From Candidatus Zhuqueibacterota bacterium (GTDB lineage: Bacteria; Zhuqueibacterota; Zhuqueibacteria; Oceanimicrobiales; Oceanimicrobiaceae): 64,000 nucleotides of DNA. Positions 7,272-58,614 of the stretch are shown here, piece after piece. A program made the position numbers and the translations under genes. Positions within the stretch are counted from its first letter, which is position 1. Each line of letters starts with the position of its first letter. The stretch is taken from the NCBI GenBank assembly GCA_029262055.1, contig JAJDAD010000043.1:62001-126000 (forward strand), in the 5' to 3' direction. The notes beneath the pieces were generated by a model, which was given only the letters and a program-made list of their open reading frames with translations, ran no database searches and was not told the DNA's origin.

Positions 7272-8336
7272 ATGCCAGACAACAAGAAGATTGCCGTTAT
7301 TCCCGGGGATGGAATAGGAATCGACGTTACACGCGAAGCGGTAAAAGTACTCAAAACAGTTCAGGCAAAGGATCGCCTGCCTTTTATGATAACCGAATTC
7401 GATTATGGGGCGGACAGATATTTGAAAGATGGGACAACTATGCCGGAAGTGCAGGTAGAGGATTTTCGGAATAACTATGACGCCATTTTCATCGGAGCCC
7501 TTGGGGATCCCAGGGTTCCCGATATGGCACATGCACGCGATATCTTGCTAGGCCTGCGGTTCAAACTGGATCTCTATGTCAATTACCGGCCCGTCAAACT
7601 CACGGATGTTCGCCTTTGCCCGCTTAAAAACAAGGCTGAGACGGACGTCGACTTTGTTGTTTTCCGTGAAAATACCGAGGGGTTGTATGTCGGTATGGGA
7701 GGTATTTTTAAGAAGGGCACAGCGGACGAAATCGCAACACAGGAGGACGTCAATACCCGTAAAGGGGTCGAGCGGATCATCAGGCACGCATTTGACTTTG
7801 CGTCCCAAAAGGGACGCTCCAAAGTGACCATGTCGGATAAAAGCAATGCGCTGCGTTTTGGGCACGATCTGTGGCAACGGGTCTTTTTTGAAGTGGGTGA
7901 GGAATACCCCGCAATCGAAAAAGAACATTTTTATGTGGATGCCCTGACCATGCAGATGATAAAGCGTCCGGAACAGTTTGAAGTGATCGTTACCTGCAAC
8001 ATGTTTGGCGATATCGTTACTGACCTGGGTGCGCAATTGCAGGGGGGACTCGGGCTGGCGGCGTCTGGAAATATCAACCCGGCGGGAACTTCGATGTTCG
8101 AGCCGGTGCACGGTTCGGCCCCGAAGTACGCCGGAAAAAACGTTGCGAACCCGTTGGCTGCGATCCTGACGGCTGGGCTACTACTCGACCACCTGGGCTA
8201 TTCGGAGCAAAATACCCAAATCGAACAATCGGTAGAAAATGCCATCAGAACGGACAATACGACCAGGGATTTAGGCGGGAACCTCGGGACAACTCAGGTG
8301 GGAGATTTTATCAGTGACCGCTTGACGAATCTTTAA
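7272..8336 (+). CDS. Isopropylmalate/isocitrate dehydrogenase family oxidoreductase
   Basis: NAD(P)-dependent beta-decarboxylating dehydrogenase of 354 residues. It has the opening IAVIPGDGIGIDVTREAVKVL, the substrate-loop region LLGLRFKLDLYVNYRPVKL, the FRENTEGLYVGMGG segment, the metal-binding CNMFGDIVTDLGAQLQGGLG and the nucleotide loop EPVHGSAPKYAGKNVANP. The sequence is nearest in feel to 3-isopropylmalate dehydrogenase (leucine synthesis) and to tartrate/malate dehydrogenase paralogues. No leuA, leuC or leuD is adjacent, so the substrate remains open. AGGGAGA lies seven bases before the ATG. Its 3' end overlaps the convergent S4 gene by 26 bp. Confidence 0.88.
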   Translation: MPDNKKIAVIPGDGIGIDVTREAVKVLKTVQAKDRLPFMITEFDYGADRYLKDGTTMPEVQVEDFRNNYDAIFIGALGDPRVPDMAHARDILLGLRFKLDLYVNYRPVKLTDVRLCPLKNKAETDVDFVVFRENTEGLYVGMGGIFKKGTADEIATQEDVNTRKGVERIIRHAFDFASQKGRSKVTMSDKSNALRFGHDLWQRVFFEVGEEYPAIEKEHFYVDALTMQMIKRPEQFEVIVTCNMFGDIVTDLGAQLQGGLGLAASGNINPAGTSMFEPVHGSAPKYAGKNVANPLAAILTAGLLLDHLGYSEQNTQIEQSVENAIRTDNTTRDLGGNLGTTQVGDFISDRLTNL

Positions 8337-8721
8337 TGTCGTCCAACTGACGCCGCTCCTTCTTGGTCGGCCGTCCTTTGTATTTTCTCTTGCCCTGTTT
8401 ATCCCAGTCGCGCAGCAGGGTTATTAACTCCTTTGCATCGTCAGAGACCTCGTTAACCTGCTCTGCGTAAAGCTCTCTGGCCAGTTTCTTCGGGATGCTC
8501 TTTTGGACAACCTTGAGGACATCAAACGTCCTGTACTTGCTGCGCATCTTGATCGTGATGACGTCACCGGCCTTTATTTGACGCGCGGGTTTTGCTTTCG
8601 CATCGTTGACCTTGACTTTACCGTCCTCGCAAGCACGCGTAGCCAGCGCCCGTGTCTTAAACAGACAACTGACCTTGAGCCATTTGTCGAGGCGAACACC
8701 ACCCGAATCAGATGCACTCAT
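8311..8721 (-). CDS. S4-domain RNA-binding protein (Hsp15/HslR-like)
   Basis: Basic protein of 136 residues with an S4 domain at its N-terminus: VRLDKWLKVSCLFKTRALATRACEDGKVKVNDAKAK follows the usual alpha-L motif pattern, then KPARQIKAGDVITI. The C-terminal tail is rich in Lys and Arg (GKRKYKGRPTKKERRQLDD), as in Hsp15, which recycles nascent-chain-bearing 50S subunits. Binding to rRNA or tRNA is likely and the exact role is inferred. Convergent with, and overlapping by 26 bp, the dehydrogenase gene. Confidence 0.85.
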   Translation of the reverse strand: MSASDSGGVRLDKWLKVSCLFKTRALATRACEDGKVKVNDAKAKPARQIKAGDVITIKMRSKYRTFDVLKVVQKSIPKKLARELYAEQVNEVSDDAKELITLLRDWDKQGKRKYKGRPTKKERRQLDDIKDSSSGH

Positions 8722-8792: not shown

Positions 8793-10052
8793 TCAGTTAC
8801 GAATTCTTGCATAAAGCGTTTTGGGTGTAATCCCCAGCATTTTTGCAGCTCGCGACTTGTTGCCTCTGGTCAGGCGAAGGGCCTTTTTGATGTGTTCGTC
8901 GACCATGTCATCCAGGGTCGGATATTTTTGGTAGGCCATATCGGAGAAATCTAGCTGGTGCAAGTGTTTCTGCAGAACAATGTGGTCCTGGCATGTTAGC
9001 AGCAGGCTTTCGATCACCAGTTCCAGTTCATCGTAGTTCAGCGGCCAATTGTATTCTTCCAAAAGCTCGTACAACTCTTCGGAAACCGTGTCCGGTTTTG
9101 AGAAATACTCCTTCTTCTTTTGCTCAAACACAGCAGTAATGACTTTTCGCAGGTCGTGCTTTCGCAGACGTAATGGGTCCACCCTTACCTCAACCCTTGC
9201 AAGAAGCTCTACCAGCTCGGACCAGGCAGAAGAGCCATTGTCATTGCCCTCGCTTGCAACGCTCTTGTTGATGGAGGCAATAAGTCTGAACTTAGGATAG
9301 GATTGGCCGTGGTGTCCATTGTCGGGCTGCATGTCTTTTAATACATTGAGAAGGAAAATCTTTTCGTCGTCGCCGAGATGCTCAATTCCCTCCAAAAACA
9401 GAGTGTCGCCGTTCTGCAGGTTGTAGGGCAAAATATTTTTCAGAGACTCGCCACAGACTTTTTGGAAGAAGAGCTTACCATCGGTTTGTCGATGAATGAT
9501 CTCCGCTATTCGGGCAGGCTTTGAACCAACTTCGGATCGAATCAAGACAGGCGTCATGCGACCGTCGCTGTCCAAGCTTCCGATATGTTCCCGGATTTCG
9601 TCAAAATCCAAGTTGTACAGGTCGCGATGGTATCTGGCGGCGTCCTTACTTTGCTTTTCGTAATTTTCCAGTTTGCGCAGAGCACGATTGTAGCGCAGGG
9701 CACCTTTGATGTTCTGGCGCAGATCGATCATGTCAATCGGCTTGCCGTAATACTGAAACACGCCAATCCGCAAGAACTCCTGACGCAACACCACACCCTG
9801 GCCGGACATGATAATCATGGGAACCGTGTGATTCGACTTTAGCAGCTTCTCGACCATCGTGAACGGGTCGACGCTCAGGCCGGGCATATTCACGTCGAGA
9901 ATAGCTGCATTGAGCCGCCAAACGTTCGATTCGAACTTTTCAAGTACTTCATTCCAATTGCGGGCAACCAGGAGATTGTGGTCCTTCTTGAGGATTCTGA
10001 CCATCAGATCCAAAAATGCCTGCTCGTCATCCGCGATTAGAATTGTGTCCAT
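8793..10052 (-). CDS. NtrC-like response regulator with a degenerate AAA+ domain
   Basis: Protein of 419 residues laid out like an NtrC activator. The N-terminal receiver is intact (D8/D9, phospho-acceptor D53 in ILDVNMPG, S83, K104). A central region (about 165-345) aligns with the sigma-54 AAA+ domain, and a C-terminal Fis helix-turn-helix (385-419) has GNKSRAAKMLGITPKTLYARI. The central domain is eroded: the Walker A position reads RSEVGSKPA instead of GESGTGKE, Walker B reads TLFLEGIE instead of TLFLDEIG, and the segment carrying the GAFTGA loop is missing. It should be phosphorylated and bind DNA but is unlikely to hydrolyse ATP or remodel sigma-54. An isolated ATTATA (minus-strand TATAAT) lies at 10076-10081. 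It is divergent from the sigma-54-type promoter at 10807. Confidence 0.85.
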   Translation of the reverse strand: MDTILIADDEQAFLDLMVRILKKDHNLLVARNWNEVLEKFESNVWRLNAAILDVNMPGLSVDPFTMVEKLLKSNHTVPMIIMSGQGVVLRQEFLRIGVFQYYGKPIDMIDLRQNIKGALRYNRALRKLENYEKQSKDAARYHRDLYNLDFDEIREHIGSLDSDGRMTPVLIRSEVGSKPARIAEIIHRQTDGKLFFQKVCGESLKNILPYNLQNGDTLFLEGIEHLGDDEKIFLLNVLKDMQPDNGHHGQSYPKFRLIASINKSVASEGNDNGSSAWSELVELLARVEVRVDPLRLRKHDLRKVITAVFEQKKKEYFSKPDTVSEELYELLEEYNWPLNYDELELVIESLLLTCQDHIVLQKHLHQLDFSDMAYQKYPTLDDMVDEHIKKALRLTRGNKSRAAKMLGITPKTLYARIRN

Positions 10053-10878
10053 AACGTTTCCCTATTACGGCCCTTATTATAGTTTTTTCAAATACTTAAA
10101 GATGGTACCCGAACAATATAGAAAAAATGGTAGAAAACACAATAGAAATTAACAAATCTTAACCCAATGTCACACGATTTTACGCGTTGCCGGAAGTCGG
10201 GGTCACTCGGAATTCGATTCTTATATTTTCTATCGTTTGTGTGTGGATCTGGCGGATTCAAAACAGCTAACTTTTAATTAAACAAGTATAAAGAATACCT
10301 TCGTGCCTTCCACGGATGTGAAGATCGTGCAGGATGATAGTCTTATGCGACCAGTCCGTCTACATCTTTGCGTCAAATCTCCGCAGTGACAAAATCCAGC
10401 GAATAGTTGTGGGAACATTGTCCCAAGTAGAAACAGGTGCCTCCGTGGTTTAGCGGTTGGCGTGCAGGGCGACCGGCTATTTGACGGATATATTGGTGCG
10501 CTCTATACTGCTCGGGACAACTATCGGGTAATTAGAACGCATAAAATTGAAATACGCAATCTGGATTGACCAGAAGTGCGCATAGTTATGGCATGCCAGG
10601 ATGTTGGATTCTAAACGACGAAACAAGTCGAGGCCAAAAGTAGTCATAAGTTGCAGTTTTTTAAGATAGATACGTAAGTGTATCACCAAGGTATAACGCC
10701 CACCGTTTGCAATCTCATGATCGTACACATAAGGAACAGATCTGTGATGCGGATAATGTGAGATAACGTCAAAAAAATCAATGTATTGTGATTCATGTGT
10801 TCCGTTTTGGCACTAAACTTGCAAATGGCAGTGCTGTCAAGGAAGACAACTTTAAACTGCTTAACAGTAGGTGAAATT
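10053..10878. other. Long intergenic region between regulator and OmpA-like gene
   Basis: About 825 bp with no convincing gene. The left 120 bases are A/T-rich. The 10-base palindrome ACAGATCTGT at 10736-10745 lies about 65 bases upstream of the sigma-54-type promoter at 10807-10823, a distance at which an activator could bind. The leader from the likely transcription start (about 10834) to the ATG at 10879 is about 45 bases. The rest could hold activator sites or a small RNA, but nothing else was recognised. Confidence 0.6.
10807..10823 (+). promoter_or_regulatory. Sigma-54 (RpoN) -24/-12 promoter
   Basis: TTGGCACTAAACTTGCA matches the sigma-54 consensus YTGGCACGNNNNTTGCW. GG at 10809-10810 and GC at 10821-10822 are separated by exactly ten bases. 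The predicted start near 10834 lies 45 bases before the ATG of the OmpA-like gene, whose Shine-Dalgarno AGGTG precedes that ATG. Confidence 0.75.
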
Positions 10879-11865
10879 ATGAAGAGAGTAAGTTTAAGTA
10901 CGGTGGTAGTGGCGTTACTCGCACTGTGCTGTACAGCTCTTGGGCAAACATCGGGGACTTTGTGGATAAAGACATTCGAGCCTGGCAGTACTTCATTGGA
11001 TGATCAAAACATAGACCGGGAAGCGTTGACTGCCCTGGATGGGCTGATGCGCGACACGAATATTGAGGTTACTTTTCTTGGGTCGGCTGACAGTGTGGGT
11101 TGGGTTATGAATGGAAGAGCCGTGCACACGCACATCTCTGAAGCCTGGAACGACGCAAAGCGGCTGGGCCGGGCCAGGGCTTTACGCGCCCGCTATCGGC
11201 GCGGCAGCGTCGGCGTAACCCACGAGAACATTGCCGGGGTCAAAGTAATGTGGCGGCGACAGGTGTCTCGTGACGAGTACGACTACGATCTGACAGACCT
11301 GCGTAACCAGAGCGACAATCTCTCAGACAAAGTCGCTCAACTCCAGGACCACATCGAGAACCTGGAGCCAGTTGCGATTACCCACACCGGCCAGGGAATA
11401 GGCGGAAGCTACACCGAAAGAACGAGTTTCTTCGATTGGGCGCTACAAGGTGGGTTGTGGACCTGGCAGTCGGCATCCGGTAGGAATATCTTATCCCCGG
11501 CGATTGCATTGGGCATTGTTATTAACAATACAACATTCATCATGCAAGGCGGTGTCACACCGTGGCACAATGCCAGTCCTGAGGGTAACCAGTCGGAGTC
11601 ATTTGTTTATCTTGGCCTGAAACACATGAAGAATGAGCGCTTTGGATTCACCGGTGGCGTCTTCCGTGGTTGGGAATTCTTTACGGCCACTGACGACTGG
11701 GCATTCAAGACAACGGGACTTGCGGCCGGGTTTATCGCCAAGAATGGCATTCTCGAGTTTAACCCCACATTAAGCTACTCCCACTCAAACTCTGTGTTCG
11801 ATGAGTCCAAATGGAAATTTGGGACAACCATCGGATTGAACATTAGTTTTAATGAAGCCTTCTAA
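10879..11865 (+). CDS. OmpA-like domain fused to an outer-membrane barrel-like domain
   Basis: Exported protein of 328 residues. The ATG at 10879 is preferred because AGGTG precedes it and a signal peptide follows (MKRVSLSTVVVALLALCCTALG). Residues about 30-105 follow the OmpA/Pal pattern: a Phe-x-Pro-Gly-Ser start, a Leu-Asp-x-Leu helix, VTFLGSADSVGW, then KRLGRARALRARYRR and a terminal VKVMWRR strand. A short coiled coil (LRNQSDNLSDKVAQLQDHIE) leads to a C-terminal half with alternating aromatic/hydrophobic strands ending in Phe, as in barrel proteins. The order, peptidoglycan-type domain before the barrel, is the reverse of OmpA. It is followed after 23 bp by the Ig-repeat lipoprotein. Function not recognised; an envelope-spanning role is inferred. 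Confidence 0.72.
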   Translation: MKRVSLSTVVVALLALCCTALGQTSGTLWIKTFEPGSTSLDDQNIDREALTALDGLMRDTNIEVTFLGSADSVGWVMNGRAVHTHISEAWNDAKRLGRARALRARYRRGSVGVTHENIAGVKVMWRRQVSRDEYDYDLTDLRNQSDNLSDKVAQLQDHIENLEPVAITHTGQGIGGSYTERTSFFDWALQGGLWTWQSASGRNILSPAIALGIVINNTTFIMQGGVTPWHNASPEGNQSESFVYLGLKHMKNERFGFTGGVFRGWEFFTATDDWAFKTTGLAAGFIAKNGILEFNPTLSYSHSNSVFDESKWKFGTTIGLNISFNEAF

Positions 11866-11888
11866 AGAAATAGGATATAGGCATAGTG

Positions 11889-14657
11889 ATGTGCACACAC
11901 ACGTTCCAGAGGTGGGGGAACCCTGTCATGCTGTTTTGGTTGACTTTGGCCCTGGCAGCAATTGGGTGCAGCAAAGCCGATATTCCGGTTGCACCAACAA
12001 CGCCGCAAACAACTCTGCACGTAACCGCAATCAACGACGAAGGGCAGGCAGTTGACTCTGCCGATGTGTTCTTCGATGGCACCCGCGTAGGCGTCACCCC
12101 GTATCAGAATCGCGTTCTGAGCCCCGGACTTCATTCTATCCGGGTTTCGGAAAATGGCTATCAGATTTTTACCAACCAGATTCTAGTGGTCCAGGGCCAA
12201 TCGTATGCAATTGAAGCGTTGCTGGAGAGAATCCCTGCGGGTGAAGGCCAGCTAGTCGTCAGCGCTAATCTGGACTCGGTTCGAATTACCGTCACGAATT
12301 CCAACGACGAATTGGTAATCGAGACATTCGAGCAGCTCTCCACGCACATTCTTCTCCCGGGCCGCTACAGAGTCAGTGGACAAAAGGCTGGTTGCCCGCA
12401 CGTCACCGAAGAAGTGGAAATAGTTGCAGGTGAGACCCGCACGATTTTTCTTCGCTTGCTAGCGCAACAAACTCAACCCACACTGCAGTTCAGTATTACA
12501 GAAGATACCGTGACAACAGGAGAAGCGGTCAATTTGTCCTGGCAGTCAGACGGTGTGCGCGTCATAATCGATCAGGGTGTCGGTGAGAGAGGACCGAACG
12601 GCTCTGAAAAGATCATTTGCTCAACGCCGGGAAAGAAGGTTTTTACCGCTACCGCCTTTAGCCAGGACAATCTTACCACTGAAGTGCGGGACACAGTTTA
12701 TGTTGAGGTTTCACTGGTGGCGCCGCCTGCCTTGCAGTTTGAGGTGGTGCAGGATACAGTCGAAATTGGCGAAGCATTCGATTTACGCTGGCAGTCCGAT
12801 GGTCACCACGTTGTTATCGACCAGGGCGTCGGTGTCCGGGGTCCGAACGGAAATGATAGCATTGTTGCGACCAGGGTGGGACAACGAGTTTTCACTGCCA
12901 CTGCCTATAATAGTGATAACCTGGCGACTGCAAAAAAGGACACTATCTACGTAGCCGCAAACCCCGCAATTCAGCCTTCCCTGCAATTCCGGGTCGTGCA
13001 GGATACGGTCGTGGTCGGCGAGACATTCGATTTAAACTGGCAGTCGGATGGCAATCATGTTGTTATCGACCAGGGTGTCGGCGTGCGCGGCCCCAATGGC
13101 AGTGAAGGCCTGACCGCGACAAGTACGGGCGAGAGAATTTTTACGGCTACTGCTTACAACATCGACAATTTGACCACAGAAAAAAGTGATACCATTTACG
13201 TCGCCCCCAAAGAAGCTGTGCGTCCGCTACTCGAGTTTAATGTCGACCAGGATTCGGTCAGGCTTGGCGAGGCCGTCGACCTGACCTGGGAATCCGACGG
13301 ACATCATGTCGTGATCGATCAGGGCGTTGGATTGCGCGGGCCGGATGGAAGCGAAAAGGTAGTCTGCTCCATTCCGGGCATCAAGGTCTTCCGGGCTATC
13401 GCTTTTAACGAGGACGATTTAACCACGGAAGGACTCGATACGGTTTATGTGATACCCGAACAGCCGGTTGCGCCGACTCTGAGTTTTCAGGTTGTGCAGG
13501 ATACCGTTGTCCTGGGTGAGCCCATCGACCTGAGCTGGGACTCTAACGGTGACCATGTGATCATCGATCAAGGTATCGGTACCCGCGGTCCAGCGGGGTC
13601 GGAAAGGGTCGTCTGCCCGACTCCGGGAACAAAAGTCTTCAGCGCTACGGCCTATAGCACGGCAAACCTAACAACGGTCCTGAAAGATACGGTCTATATT
13701 GTCGAGCTCGCTCCTGAGCCGCCAACGCTGCAGTTTGAGGTGGAACAGGATACGGTAGAGGTCGGCCAGTCAGTCAACCTGTCCTGGCAATCGAATGGTC
13801 TCCAGGTTGCCATCGACCAGGGCGTCGGCAACCGCGGCCCCTTCGGCAGAGACGAGGTTGTGTTCGCCAACCCGGGAAACAAGGTATTCACTGCGATTGC
13901 CTTCGGAGAGCAAAACCTGCTCACGTCGCGCAAAGATTCGGTCTACATCAAAGAGGCGCCACTACCGCCCGAGCCGGTGGTCATGCTTGCCACGACGCGC
14001 CTGGTGACGGTGGGCACGCCCGCGACTATTACGTGGCAGTCGCAGAACGCTGACTTCCTGGTTATAGATCACATCAGCAGCCCTGCATCCGAGGGTAGCG
14101 AGCAGATTACATTTAGTACTCCGGGTATTAGAATCATTACGGCCACAGCTTTTAATCAATCCGGCTGGAGAACCGCCACCGATACCATCGAGGTTGTTCA
14201 ATTAGTTGTAACTCCGCCGGTGGATGACATTCTCGTTCTGGCAGATGTGAGCATTAGAGCTGACAGAGGGCCGCAAGGAATGGTAGAAAGGGCTGCCGGG
14301 CTGTTTCAGATTCAAACCGCCGGCAAGTATAAAGTGATGGCTGAAGTTTGGTACAACAGCGGTGACACGCAACGTAACGAGAGTTATTATCTCGAATTCG
14401 AGAGCACGACCAACAGTTCCATCCTGCCCAAGAACCCCAATGCAGGGTTACAGAGAGTTGTCCCTGACGACCCGGGCGACCCGCATACGGTCAGTCGCAA
14501 CAGCGGCGTTTTCGGGTTAAAGCAAGGTGCTCATCTCATCAATGTTTACCACTACGGTGTGATATCGGACAGCTATCCTGAGTTTCTAAACGGTCCGCTG
14601 GCAGGAGCCGAGAGCGTAAAGATTCTGGGTTTTCGTCTGATTTATCTCGGTAACTGA
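11889..14657 (+). CDS. Large lipoprotein: PEGA domain plus seven Ig-like repeats
   Basis: Protein of about 922 residues. The ATG at 11889 gives a lipoprotein signal with Arg in the n-region and LAAIGC as lipobox; ATG at 11928 is possible but would lack a positive charge. After the Cys come a PEGA domain (VFFDGTRVGVTPYQNRVLSPG) and a second related beta domain. Seven tandem Ig-like repeats of 83 residues follow, with the core pattern WQSDG-x2-VVIDQGVG-x-RGPNGSE and endings like DTVYV; the seventh is diverged. The last 145 residues form an unrecognised beta-rich domain. Probably a membrane-anchored stalk in the periplasm or at the surface. It follows the OmpA-like gene closely and ends at a clear terminator, so the two form one transcript. 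No enzymatic motif seen. Confidence 0.82.
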   Translation: MCTHTFQRWGNPVMLFWLTLALAAIGCSKADIPVAPTTPQTTLHVTAINDEGQAVDSADVFFDGTRVGVTPYQNRVLSPGLHSIRVSENGYQIFTNQILVVQGQSYAIEALLERIPAGEGQLVVSANLDSVRITVTNSNDELVIETFEQLSTHILLPGRYRVSGQKAGCPHVTEEVEIVAGETRTIFLRLLAQQTQPTLQFSITEDTVTTGEAVNLSWQSDGVRVIIDQGVGERGPNGSEKIICSTPGKKVFTATAFSQDNLTTEVRDTVYVEVSLVAPPALQFEVVQDTVEIGEAFDLRWQSDGHHVVIDQGVGVRGPNGNDSIVATRVGQRVFTATAYNSDNLATAKKDTIYVAANPAIQPSLQFRVVQDTVVVGETFDLNWQSDGNHVVIDQGVGVRGPNGSEGLTATSTGERIFTATAYNIDNLTTEKSDTIYVAPKEAVRPLLEFNVDQDSVRLGEAVDLTWESDGHHVVIDQGVGLRGPDGSEKVVCSIPGIKVFRAIAFNEDDLTTEGLDTVYVIPEQPVAPTLSFQVVQDTVVLGEPIDLSWDSNGDHVIIDQGIGTRGPAGSERVVCPTPGTKVFSATAYSTANLTTVLKDTVYIVELAPEPPTLQFEVEQDTVEVGQSVNLSWQSNGLQVAIDQGVGNRGPFGRDEVVFANPGNKVFTAIAFGEQNLLTSRKDSVYIKEAPLPPEPVVMLATTRLVTVGTPATITWQSQNADFLVIDHISSPASEGSEQITFSTPGIRIITATAFNQSGWRTATDTIEVVQLVVTPPVDDILVLADVSIRADRGPQGMVERAAGLFQIQTAGKYKVMAEVWYNSGDTQRNESYYLEFESTTNSSILPKNPNAGLQRVVPDDPGDPHTVSRNSGVFGLKQGAHLINVYHYGVISDSYPEFLNGPLAGAESVKILGFRLIYLGN
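12483..14204 (+). repeat. Seven in-frame tandem repeats of exactly 249 bp
   Basis: Units begin at 12483, 12732, 12981, 13230, 13479, 13728 and 13977, each 249 bases after the last, with no indel. Units 1-6 are clearly alike in protein and share DNA stretches such as CAGGATACGGTCG. Unit 7 keeps only the spacing and the WQS, ID and TATAFN landmarks. Confidence 0.9.
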
Positions 14658-20165: not shown

Positions 20166-21971
20166 TTAGGCGTTTGTGTCCGGCGGTTCGACTTCGCCGA
20201 CCGGCAAAACCACCGTAAATGTAGTGCCCTCTTCCACTTTGCTGCGCACCACAACCTTGCCCTGGTGTTCGTCCACAATCTGTTGCACGATAGCCAGGCC
20301 TAGACCCGAACCGCTACTTTTGGTCGAGTAGTAAAAATCGAAAACTTTGCCCAAGTCCTCTTTTGCAATTCCGTGACCAGTATCCGAGAATGACAGCACG
20401 ATGGTCTTGGCATTTTCCCGGCTCGTGCTCTCGCGCAGACCGATCTTCAGCTTGCCGCCGCCAGGCATTGACTGAATGGCATTAATGGTCAAGTTCAGGA
20501 TAACCTGTCGCATCTTGGCAACATCGACGCTAGCCGTGACCGGCGTCCGGTCATAATTGCGTTCGAGCCGGATTCCCTTATTGAGTGAGTCTGCGACTTG
20601 CATCATCACAACGTCGTCGACGATCTGATCGATGGCGATGTTCTCGCGCTTCATTTTAGGTGGCCGCGCTACTGCGAGAAAATCTGTGACGAGCGAATCG
20701 ACCCGTCTGATCTCGGCAGCGAGGATGCCGTAGAATTTCTCCACCCGTTCTATATCGATCTGCTTTTTCCCAAACTCCCGCTTCAGAACCTGCATATTGA
20801 TGACCATGGAGTTGAGTGGATTTCTGATTTCATGGGACAGGACCGAAGCCAGCTTGCTCAGTGTTTCAAGAACTTCGGTGCGTTTCAGACGGCCCTGAAT
20901 CTCGGTCAGGCGCTCGGCCATTTCATTGAAATTTTCCGCGAGCGTCCCGATCTCATCATCAGTTACTTTCTCAATGCGGTAGTCGAGATCGCCGTGGGAA
21001 AAGCGATCCATGCCCGCGACCAGGAGGTTTACCGGCTTGACGATCCAACGGGAGTAAAAATAAGCCAGCAGCGATGCGAACAAAACACTGATGCCCATGA
21101 ATTGCATCACGCGAAAACGCATCCGGCGCGCTGAAGCAAAAGCTTCGCTCGTGGGCTGTTGCAGCATGGCGCCCCAACCCGAGTCGCCGATAGGCGCATA
21201 CGCGGCAAGCACTTCAACGCCCTCCTCATTTTCATAAATCAGTTGGCTGCTCTCTTGCTCACGAACAATACGAGACACTGCAGTGTTTCGGAATCTCTCC
21301 TTGGCGTAGACTTTCCTGCGGTCGGTATGCGCGATATAAACCCCCTTCTGGTTGAAGATGAACGCTTCGCCGTTTTTGCCGACCTTGTTTTCATCCACAA
21401 TATCCCACATGGTTTTCAGATCCACCACAGCATACAGAATTCCCACCACCTGGCCGTAAGCTACTACCGGCTCTGCAATGTCGAGCATGGGCAGGTTGTC
21501 ATCGTTGATGTAAACATCTGTCCTGTAGCTTTCACCGTTTGCAAATTGCGCCAGAATCTTTGCCGCAGTACCGTTGGTGGCCCAGCTCTGCAAGGTCTCG
21601 AAGGAGGTGCTGGCCAGGACGTGACCCAAGGTGTCAATTATGGACAGTTCATCAAAGAGGTCGAACTCAGTGAGCAGGGTATTGACCGCAAGCTCCTGGG
21701 TGCTCTTGCTCATTTCGAAAATGGACTGAAACTTGGCCTGACTCTTGACCAAATCAGTTGCTGTGGTGAGCTTGAGGTCGATAAACCGCGTGGACCGGTT
21801 GGCAAACTCCAGGTTGCGCTCCAGGATGGTTTCCTTGATCGAGTCCTGTGCTGTGTCGACCAGTACGTTGCCCGTAATAAAAAGGGGAATCAGGACAATC
21901 ATGATGTGCGAGACCAGAAGCCTCGTTAACAAGCGATGTCTGATTCTGATATTATGCGTTTGCTCTGCCAT
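20166..21971 (-). CDS. Membrane sensor histidine kinase (Cache-HAMP-HisKA-HATPase)
   Basis: Kinase of about 601 residues, starting at the ATG at 21971. Two membrane helices (about 20-40 and 280-305) flank a periplasmic double-Cache-like sensor (VVGILYAVVDLKTMWDIV, FIFNQKGVYIAHTDRRKV). A HAMP segment, the H-box LSHEIRNPLNSM, and an ATPase domain with NLTINAIQSMPGGG (N box), FSDTGHGI (G1) and GSGLGLAIVQQIV (G2) follow. The kinase core resembles the NtrB type that partners NtrC regulators. No response regulator is adjacent; the nearest is the NtrC-like gene at 8.8-10.1 kb. It is co-transcribed with potassium-uptake genes and a solute-binding protein, which may supply its signal. Confidence 0.9.
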   Translation of the reverse strand: MAEQTHNIRIRHRLLTRLLVSHIMIVLIPLFITGNVLVDTAQDSIKETILERNLEFANRSTRFIDLKLTTATDLVKSQAKFQSIFEMSKSTQELAVNTLLTEFDLFDELSIIDTLGHVLASTSFETLQSWATNGTAAKILAQFANGESYRTDVYINDDNLPMLDIAEPVVAYGQVVGILYAVVDLKTMWDIVDENKVGKNGEAFIFNQKGVYIAHTDRRKVYAKERFRNTAVSRIVREQESSQLIYENEEGVEVLAAYAPIGDSGWGAMLQQPTSEAFASARRMRFRVMQFMGISVLFASLLAYFYSRWIVKPVNLLVAGMDRFSHGDLDYRIEKVTDDEIGTLAENFNEMAERLTEIQGRLKRTEVLETLSKLASVLSHEIRNPLNSMVINMQVLKREFGKKQIDIERVEKFYGILAAEIRRVDSLVTDFLAVARPPKMKRENIAIDQIVDDVVMMQVADSLNKGIRLERNYDRTPVTASVDVAKMRQVILNLTINAIQSMPGGGKLKIGLRESTSRENAKTIVLSFSDTGHGIAKEDLGKVFDFYYSTKSSGSGLGLAIVQQIVDEHQGKVVVRSKVEEGTTFTVVLPVGEVEPPDTNA

Positions 21972-21997
21972 GACCACAGTCTGGTGAGGTGTGTTGA

Positions 21998-58597: not shown

Positions 58598-58614
58598 CTG
58601 GCATATCATTTGCA
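58598..58614 (+). promoter_or_regulatory. Sigma-54 (RpoN) -24/-12 promoter
   Basis: CTGGCATATCATTTGCA matches the consensus with GG (58600-58601) and GC (58612-58613) ten bases apart. The predicted start near 58625 lies about 42 bases before the TTG start at 58667. It lies inside the frame that would result from using the upstream ATG at 58589, so that ATG is unlikely to be the start. Confidence 0.75.

Follow-up and report, generated by a model that had tools for sequence, protein, structure and literature searches.

The 64,000-nucleotide window analysed here, from Candidatus Zhuqueibacterota, encodes an NtrC-family response regulator in which Walker A, Walker B, the GAFTGA loop, the arginine finger and sensor II have all been lost. 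Alignment showed the same losses in all seven orthologues compared, and the gene is under purifying selection. The regulator lies divergent to an operon with a sigma-54 promoter, and that promoter also occurs in other families beside operons that have no such regulator. Sequence comparison suggests that the protein is probably a phosphorylation-controlled, ATP-independent DNA-binding regulator, and that the live activator of the operon is encoded elsewhere. Feature coordinates are given in Table 1.

Table 1. Features of the regulator gene, the divergent operon and the region between them (window positions)
Feature	Position	Strand	Evidence
S4-domain (Hsp15-like) gene, downstream of regulator, conserved neighbour	8311..8721	-	neighbourhood comparison
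NtrC-family response regulator gene, degenerate, 419 aa	8793..10052	-	ORF, Pfam, orthologues in six same-family genomes
Fis-type DNA-binding region, aa 378-419	8796..8921	-	Pfam, orthologue alignment
AAA core and lid, degenerate, aa 166-366	8955..9557	-	Pfam Sigma54_activ_2, AAA_lid_14; fold matches NtrX, NtrC1
Sensor II position: WPLNYDEL, not WPGNVREL	9024..9047	-	alignment
Arginine-finger position: AWSELVEL, not FREDLYYR	9204..9227	-	alignment
Walker B position: TLFLEGIE, not TIFLDEIG	9381..9404	-	alignment
Site of missing GAFTGA-bearing L1 segment, between aa 209 and 210	9423..9428	-	alignment
Walker A position: SEVGSKPA, not GESGTGKE	9513..9536	-	alignment with comparison proteins
Long helix aa 108-146, receiver-to-AAA joint	9615..9731	-	AlphaFold2 model
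Receiver domain, aa 1-118	9699..10052	-	Pfam Response_reg, orthologue alignment
Sigma-70-like promoter of regulator gene: -10 TATATT (10115-10120), weak -35 (10137-10142)	10115..10142	-	alignment
Conserved block TTAAGATTTGTTAA, candidate autoregulatory site or UP element	10149..10162	-	motif search and alignment, seven intergenic regions
Sigma-54 promoter TGGCACTAAACTTGCA	10808..10823	+	exact consensus match
Divergent gene, predicted secreted/outer-membrane protein, without Pfam match	10879..11865	+	conserved next to regulator
Second gene of operon, PEGA-domain lipoprotein with repeats	11886..14657	+	Pfam PEGA; conserved adjacency

The open reading frame, the Pfam matches and an alignment with 22 proteins of receiver-AAA-Fis type, drawn from this genome and its class, bore out a preliminary description of this gene in its coordinates, its strand, its readings at Walker A, Walker B and GAFTGA, and the receiver, AAA+, Fis order of a sigma-54 activator. 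Pfam matched Response_reg at residues 3-114 (6e-13), Sigma54_activ_2 at 151-293 (2e-6), AAA_lid_14 at 294-365 and HTH_8 at 385-417 (9e-12). The phospho-acceptor D53 and the Fis helix-turn-helix (HTH) had been called intact, and both are: receiver residues D8, D9, D53 (9894-9896), S83 and K104 were invariant in all seven orthologues, and the HTH_8 match was clear. The residues associated with phosphorylation competence (acidic pair, phospho-acceptor aspartate, switch S/T and lysine) were all present in the regulator.

The Walker lysine and the Walker-B DE pair were found in 22/22 comparison proteins and in none of the seven orthologues. The ELFGHEKGAFTGA column block corresponded to a gap in the regulator, and the whole GAFTGA segment was a gap in every orthologue. 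K178 of the regulator stands one place before the Walker lysine position, and all six orthologues have Q or R there; it thus does not restore a working P-loop. G222, at the Walker B position, was invariant in 7/7. No NCBIfam model came near its cut-off for the regulator; the best was NtrC (82 of 559 bits), followed by NtrX (NF051870; 69.7 of 600 bits, below the curated cut-off). The model for Salmonella PgtA is of similar extent (414 positions, with the alignment spanning residues 2-417), but with 65.6 bits, where 650 is the cut-off, the regulator falls outside the PgtA family. These sequence features identify the regulator as a descendant of sigma-54 activators that is predicted to be incapable of acting as a normal one.

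The predicted structure was consistent with these losses. An AlphaFold2 model based on a 29-sequence alignment (mean pLDDT 84.8) was used in place of one based on 7 sequences (pLDDT 60). In this model the receiver leads into a long helix (residues 108-146), followed by an AAA-like core that lacks the L1 insertion, then by a lid and the HTH; the long helix is likely the dimerisation helix. The closest solved structures found by Foldseek were Brucella NtrX (5m7n/o/p, the best), NtrC1, NtrC4 and VpsR, and PspF was also matched. Whole-chain TM-scores were modest (0.40-0.58), which is common where several domains are flexibly arranged. In a profile match to the NtrC1 entry of the PDB (4l4u), the orthologue consensus LIRAEEGSRPAMLAKII aligned with LITGESGVGKEVVARLI, and the L1 region lay within an unaligned stretch between two matched parts. 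The profile and structure alignments yielded neither a Walker A nor a GAFTGA loop, so an ATPase is restored neither by sequence nor by comparison of the predicted structure. Structural alignment had been proposed as a check in the preliminary description, and the losses withstood it.

Orthologues of the regulator, with 63-67% identity, were present in six of the seven other same-family genomes. The seventh (G003) was not scorable, its contig stopping 23 bases before the first gene of the operon; counts out of seven therefore refer to the window's genome plus the other six, which together span six genera. Publicly deposited copies of the orthologues carry the names candidate division KSB1 bacterium and Caldithrix sp. 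In a profile search across 82 phylum genomes, with scoring of the top 22 candidates from each, no orthologue turned up in the 74 genomes outside the family. Because all orthologues share the losses and none was found beyond the family, the regulator is, as far as these genomes indicate, clade-specific, with its losses fixed.

Constraint differed among the domains. Mean pairwise identity of the orthologues was 92% in the HTH, 84% in the receiver and 56% in the AAA core, and the Fis-type DNA-binding region was the most conserved part, with 33 of its 42 positions invariant. Between two congeners, dN/dS (Nei-Gojobori) was 0.09 overall, 0.05 for the receiver, 0.11 for the AAA domain and 0.03 for the HTH. 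Decay confined to one strain had been foreseen as the alternative to be looked for in related genomes; the same losses were instead fixed in several genera, and purifying selection acts on the gene. Motifs lost in sequence could also mark a decaying pseudogene or a still weak sigma-54 activator, and we give these readings next to no weight. Seven full-length frames and the overall dN/dS rule out a pseudogene, the loss set was identical throughout, and no residue could fill the Walker or GAFTGA role in a weak activator.

The AAA fold and lid are retained, and the regulator could in principle enter and poison the ring of an intact activator, in a dominant-negative manner controlled by phosphorylation. 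We consider this very improbable: the protein has lost the arginine finger, the sensor motifs and the L1 loop, and an AAA core so much less conserved than the receiver and HTH fits poorly with a kept ring interface. From its sequence, the regulator might conceivably still bind nucleotide without hydrolysing it.

The sigma-54 promoter to which the regulator had been described as divergent was an exact TGGCAY-N5-TTGCW match, present upstream of the outer-membrane gene in 7/7 family genomes. The chance of such a match was at most 0.0007 per locus under a first-order Markov model. In the same seven genomes the regulator was divergent to the outer-membrane/PEGA lipoprotein gene pair; at least six of them had the S4-domain gene downstream of it, followed in six by an isocitrate dehydrogenase gene. 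A second exact sigma-54 promoter match was seen in the window at 58599-58614 (+ strand).

Homologues of the outer-membrane gene (31-34% identity), likewise followed by a lipoprotein gene, were found in three other families. All eight of these outgroup operon loci that were examined carried the sigma-54 promoter, with an exact match in five and a single deviation in the other three. The regulator was beside the operon in none of the eight, and those genomes had no orthologue of it elsewhere. Over the operon pair as a whole (10808-14657 and outgroup loci L097-L104), the promoter was present in 15/15 loci with upstream DNA, from four families. Sigma-54 control of the operon is thus independent of the regulator, since the promoter occurs in outgroups that lack it, and the sequence comparison indicates that the operon's activator is another protein. 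The regulator probably joined the operon later, which is the simplest reading because the outgroup operons have the promoter and no regulator. RpoN is encoded once in the genome. Candidate activators are plentiful, since about 20 related proteins inspected in the genome have their Walker and GAFTGA-type motifs undamaged.

The preliminary description had proposed that the regulator could compete with intact activators. As a decoy, the phosphorylated protein would occupy the enhancer sites of an intact activator and block the divergent sigma-54 operon. The kept placement beside a conserved sigma-54 promoter is compatible with this, as are GTCTCA half-sites that recur about 75-190 bp upstream of the promoter. 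These half-sites were picked after the fact, however, and are also present in outgroups without the regulator; they were rejected as an enhancer motif on both counts. Among the other activator HTHs of the genome none exceeded 46% identity to that of the regulator, which gives no sign of shared site recognition and speaks against simple competition for the sites of another activator. Near the regulator gene the one conserved element was at the regulator's own promoter, and the sigma-54 promoter is present in regulator-free outgroups. Competition thus has no specific support, and we regard the decoy as improbable. Two further roles named alongside it, repressor and sigma-70 regulator, stand as the likelier alternatives suggested by the sequence.

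The conserved element at the regulator's own promoter was the TTAAGATTTGTTAA block, kept on the regulator's side in 7/7 genomes just upstream of TATATT. The sigma-70-like promoter itself scores below the consensus-scan threshold and was noticed in the intergenic alignment. The block may serve autoregulation, or it may be an UP element of the promoter. Its degenerate pattern had no other exact match in the genome, and a genome-wide regulon search gave counts that overall were not above those of a reversed-pattern control. ARAGORN and Rfam searches of the intergenic region found neither a tRNA nor an Rfam element; positions 10440-10475, where both programs report nothing, resemble the 5' part of a tRNA (CCGTGGTTTAGCGGTTGG).

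The conserved adjacency of regulator and operon could be plain synteny, the regulator controlling sigma-70 promoters elsewhere. Caulobacter NtrC provides a precedent, with dozens of sites and both activation and repression (PMC10274813), and no regulator-specific site was evident at the operon promoter. The divergent pair was nevertheless kept in all seven genomes and six genera, and sites of the conserved-block type were not enriched elsewhere in the genome. Distant targets alone therefore seem to us rather unlikely.

We favour a phosphorylation-controlled, ATP-independent regulator, for which the following course can be proposed. An ancestral sigma-54 activator would have lost ATP hydrolysis and sigma-54 contact before the family diversified. 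Phosphorylation of D53 by a kinase would act through the receiver and the long linker helix to change how the protein dimerises or oligomerises, and this change would alter DNA binding by the Fis-type HTH with no use of ATP. The AAA domain would be left as a folded connector only. The protein would then work like a classical repressor or sigma-70-type regulator. Its most likely target would be its own promoter, through TTAAGATTTGTTAA; it may also act on the shared intergenic region (10053-10878), modulating the neighbouring operon. A different intact activator, encoded elsewhere, would switch on the operon at its sigma-54 promoter. That the ATPase-dead regulator was added as a dedicated modulator, giving an ancient sigma-54 operon a second two-component input, is a speculative extension that we hold to be doubtful.

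No histidine kinase gene adjoined the regulator in the neighbourhoods of the seven genomes. The nearest kinase gene, at 20166-21977, was rejected as the cognate kinase: it has orthologues in 30/63 class genomes and is therefore too widespread to be specific. It encodes a histidine kinase of Cache-HAMP type with no response regulator gene beside it, and by eye the genes near it look like TrkH/TrkA potassium uptake.

Several known regulators share part of this history. NtrX of Brucella and Caulobacter has the same receiver-AAA-Fis order, the Brucella protein being the best match to the predicted fold, and Caulobacter NtrX likewise lacks GAFTGA (PMC10274813). Brucella NtrX binds nucleotide, since it was crystallised with ATP and ADP, whereas the P-loop, Walker B and arginine finger of the regulator are gone. 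NtrC of Caulobacter and Rhodobacter capsulatus also has the receiver-AAA-Fis order, with L1/GAFTGA deleted, and works at sigma-70 promoters (PMC10274813). Both proteins keep working Walker motifs, unlike the regulator; Caulobacter NtrC depends on Walker A and B residues, and Rhodobacter NtrC on ATP binding (PMC10274813).

GAFTGA was lost with a switch to sigma-70 promoters in TyrR, DhaR and HupR, and probably in VpsR and YplP (PMC3162934). Similar to the regulator, all five are descendants of sigma-54 activators without a proper GAFTGA (PMC3162934). VpsR was in addition a fold match, and VpsR-type regulators are reported as not needing ATP (PMC10274813). By its sequence the regulator shares a trait of GAFTGA-less sigma-70 regulators, namely sigma-54 activator ancestry with loss of L1/GAFTGA. 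The documented loss in those five proteins is the GAFTGA element (PMC3162934), whereas the regulator has lost its entire ATPase centre. PMC3162934 does not describe such a loss of the whole centre, which here is fixed in one KSB1 family, and a literature search of partial coverage found no paper on the regulator. Loss of GAFTGA therefore has precedents; the added loss of the whole ATPase centre is what is new.

The regulator provides a natural case of a repurposed sigma-54 activator in which all ATPase and sigma-54 elements were lost together and the product was selected across several genera. It shows that receiver and HTH can remain strongly constrained after the loss of the engine. Automated annotation would wrongly name such a protein sigma-54-dependent. 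With a conserved sigma-54 promoter that also occurs regulator-free elsewhere, one can test how dead and live activators share the work. At least four other sigma-54-type AAA proteins of the genome were without a standard GAFTGA loop (L005, L014, L019 and L028, on G000 contigs C10, C30, C30 and C103, respectively), and loss of sigma-54 contact seems, from their sequences, to be recurrent in this genome; these proteins keep more of the Walker motifs.
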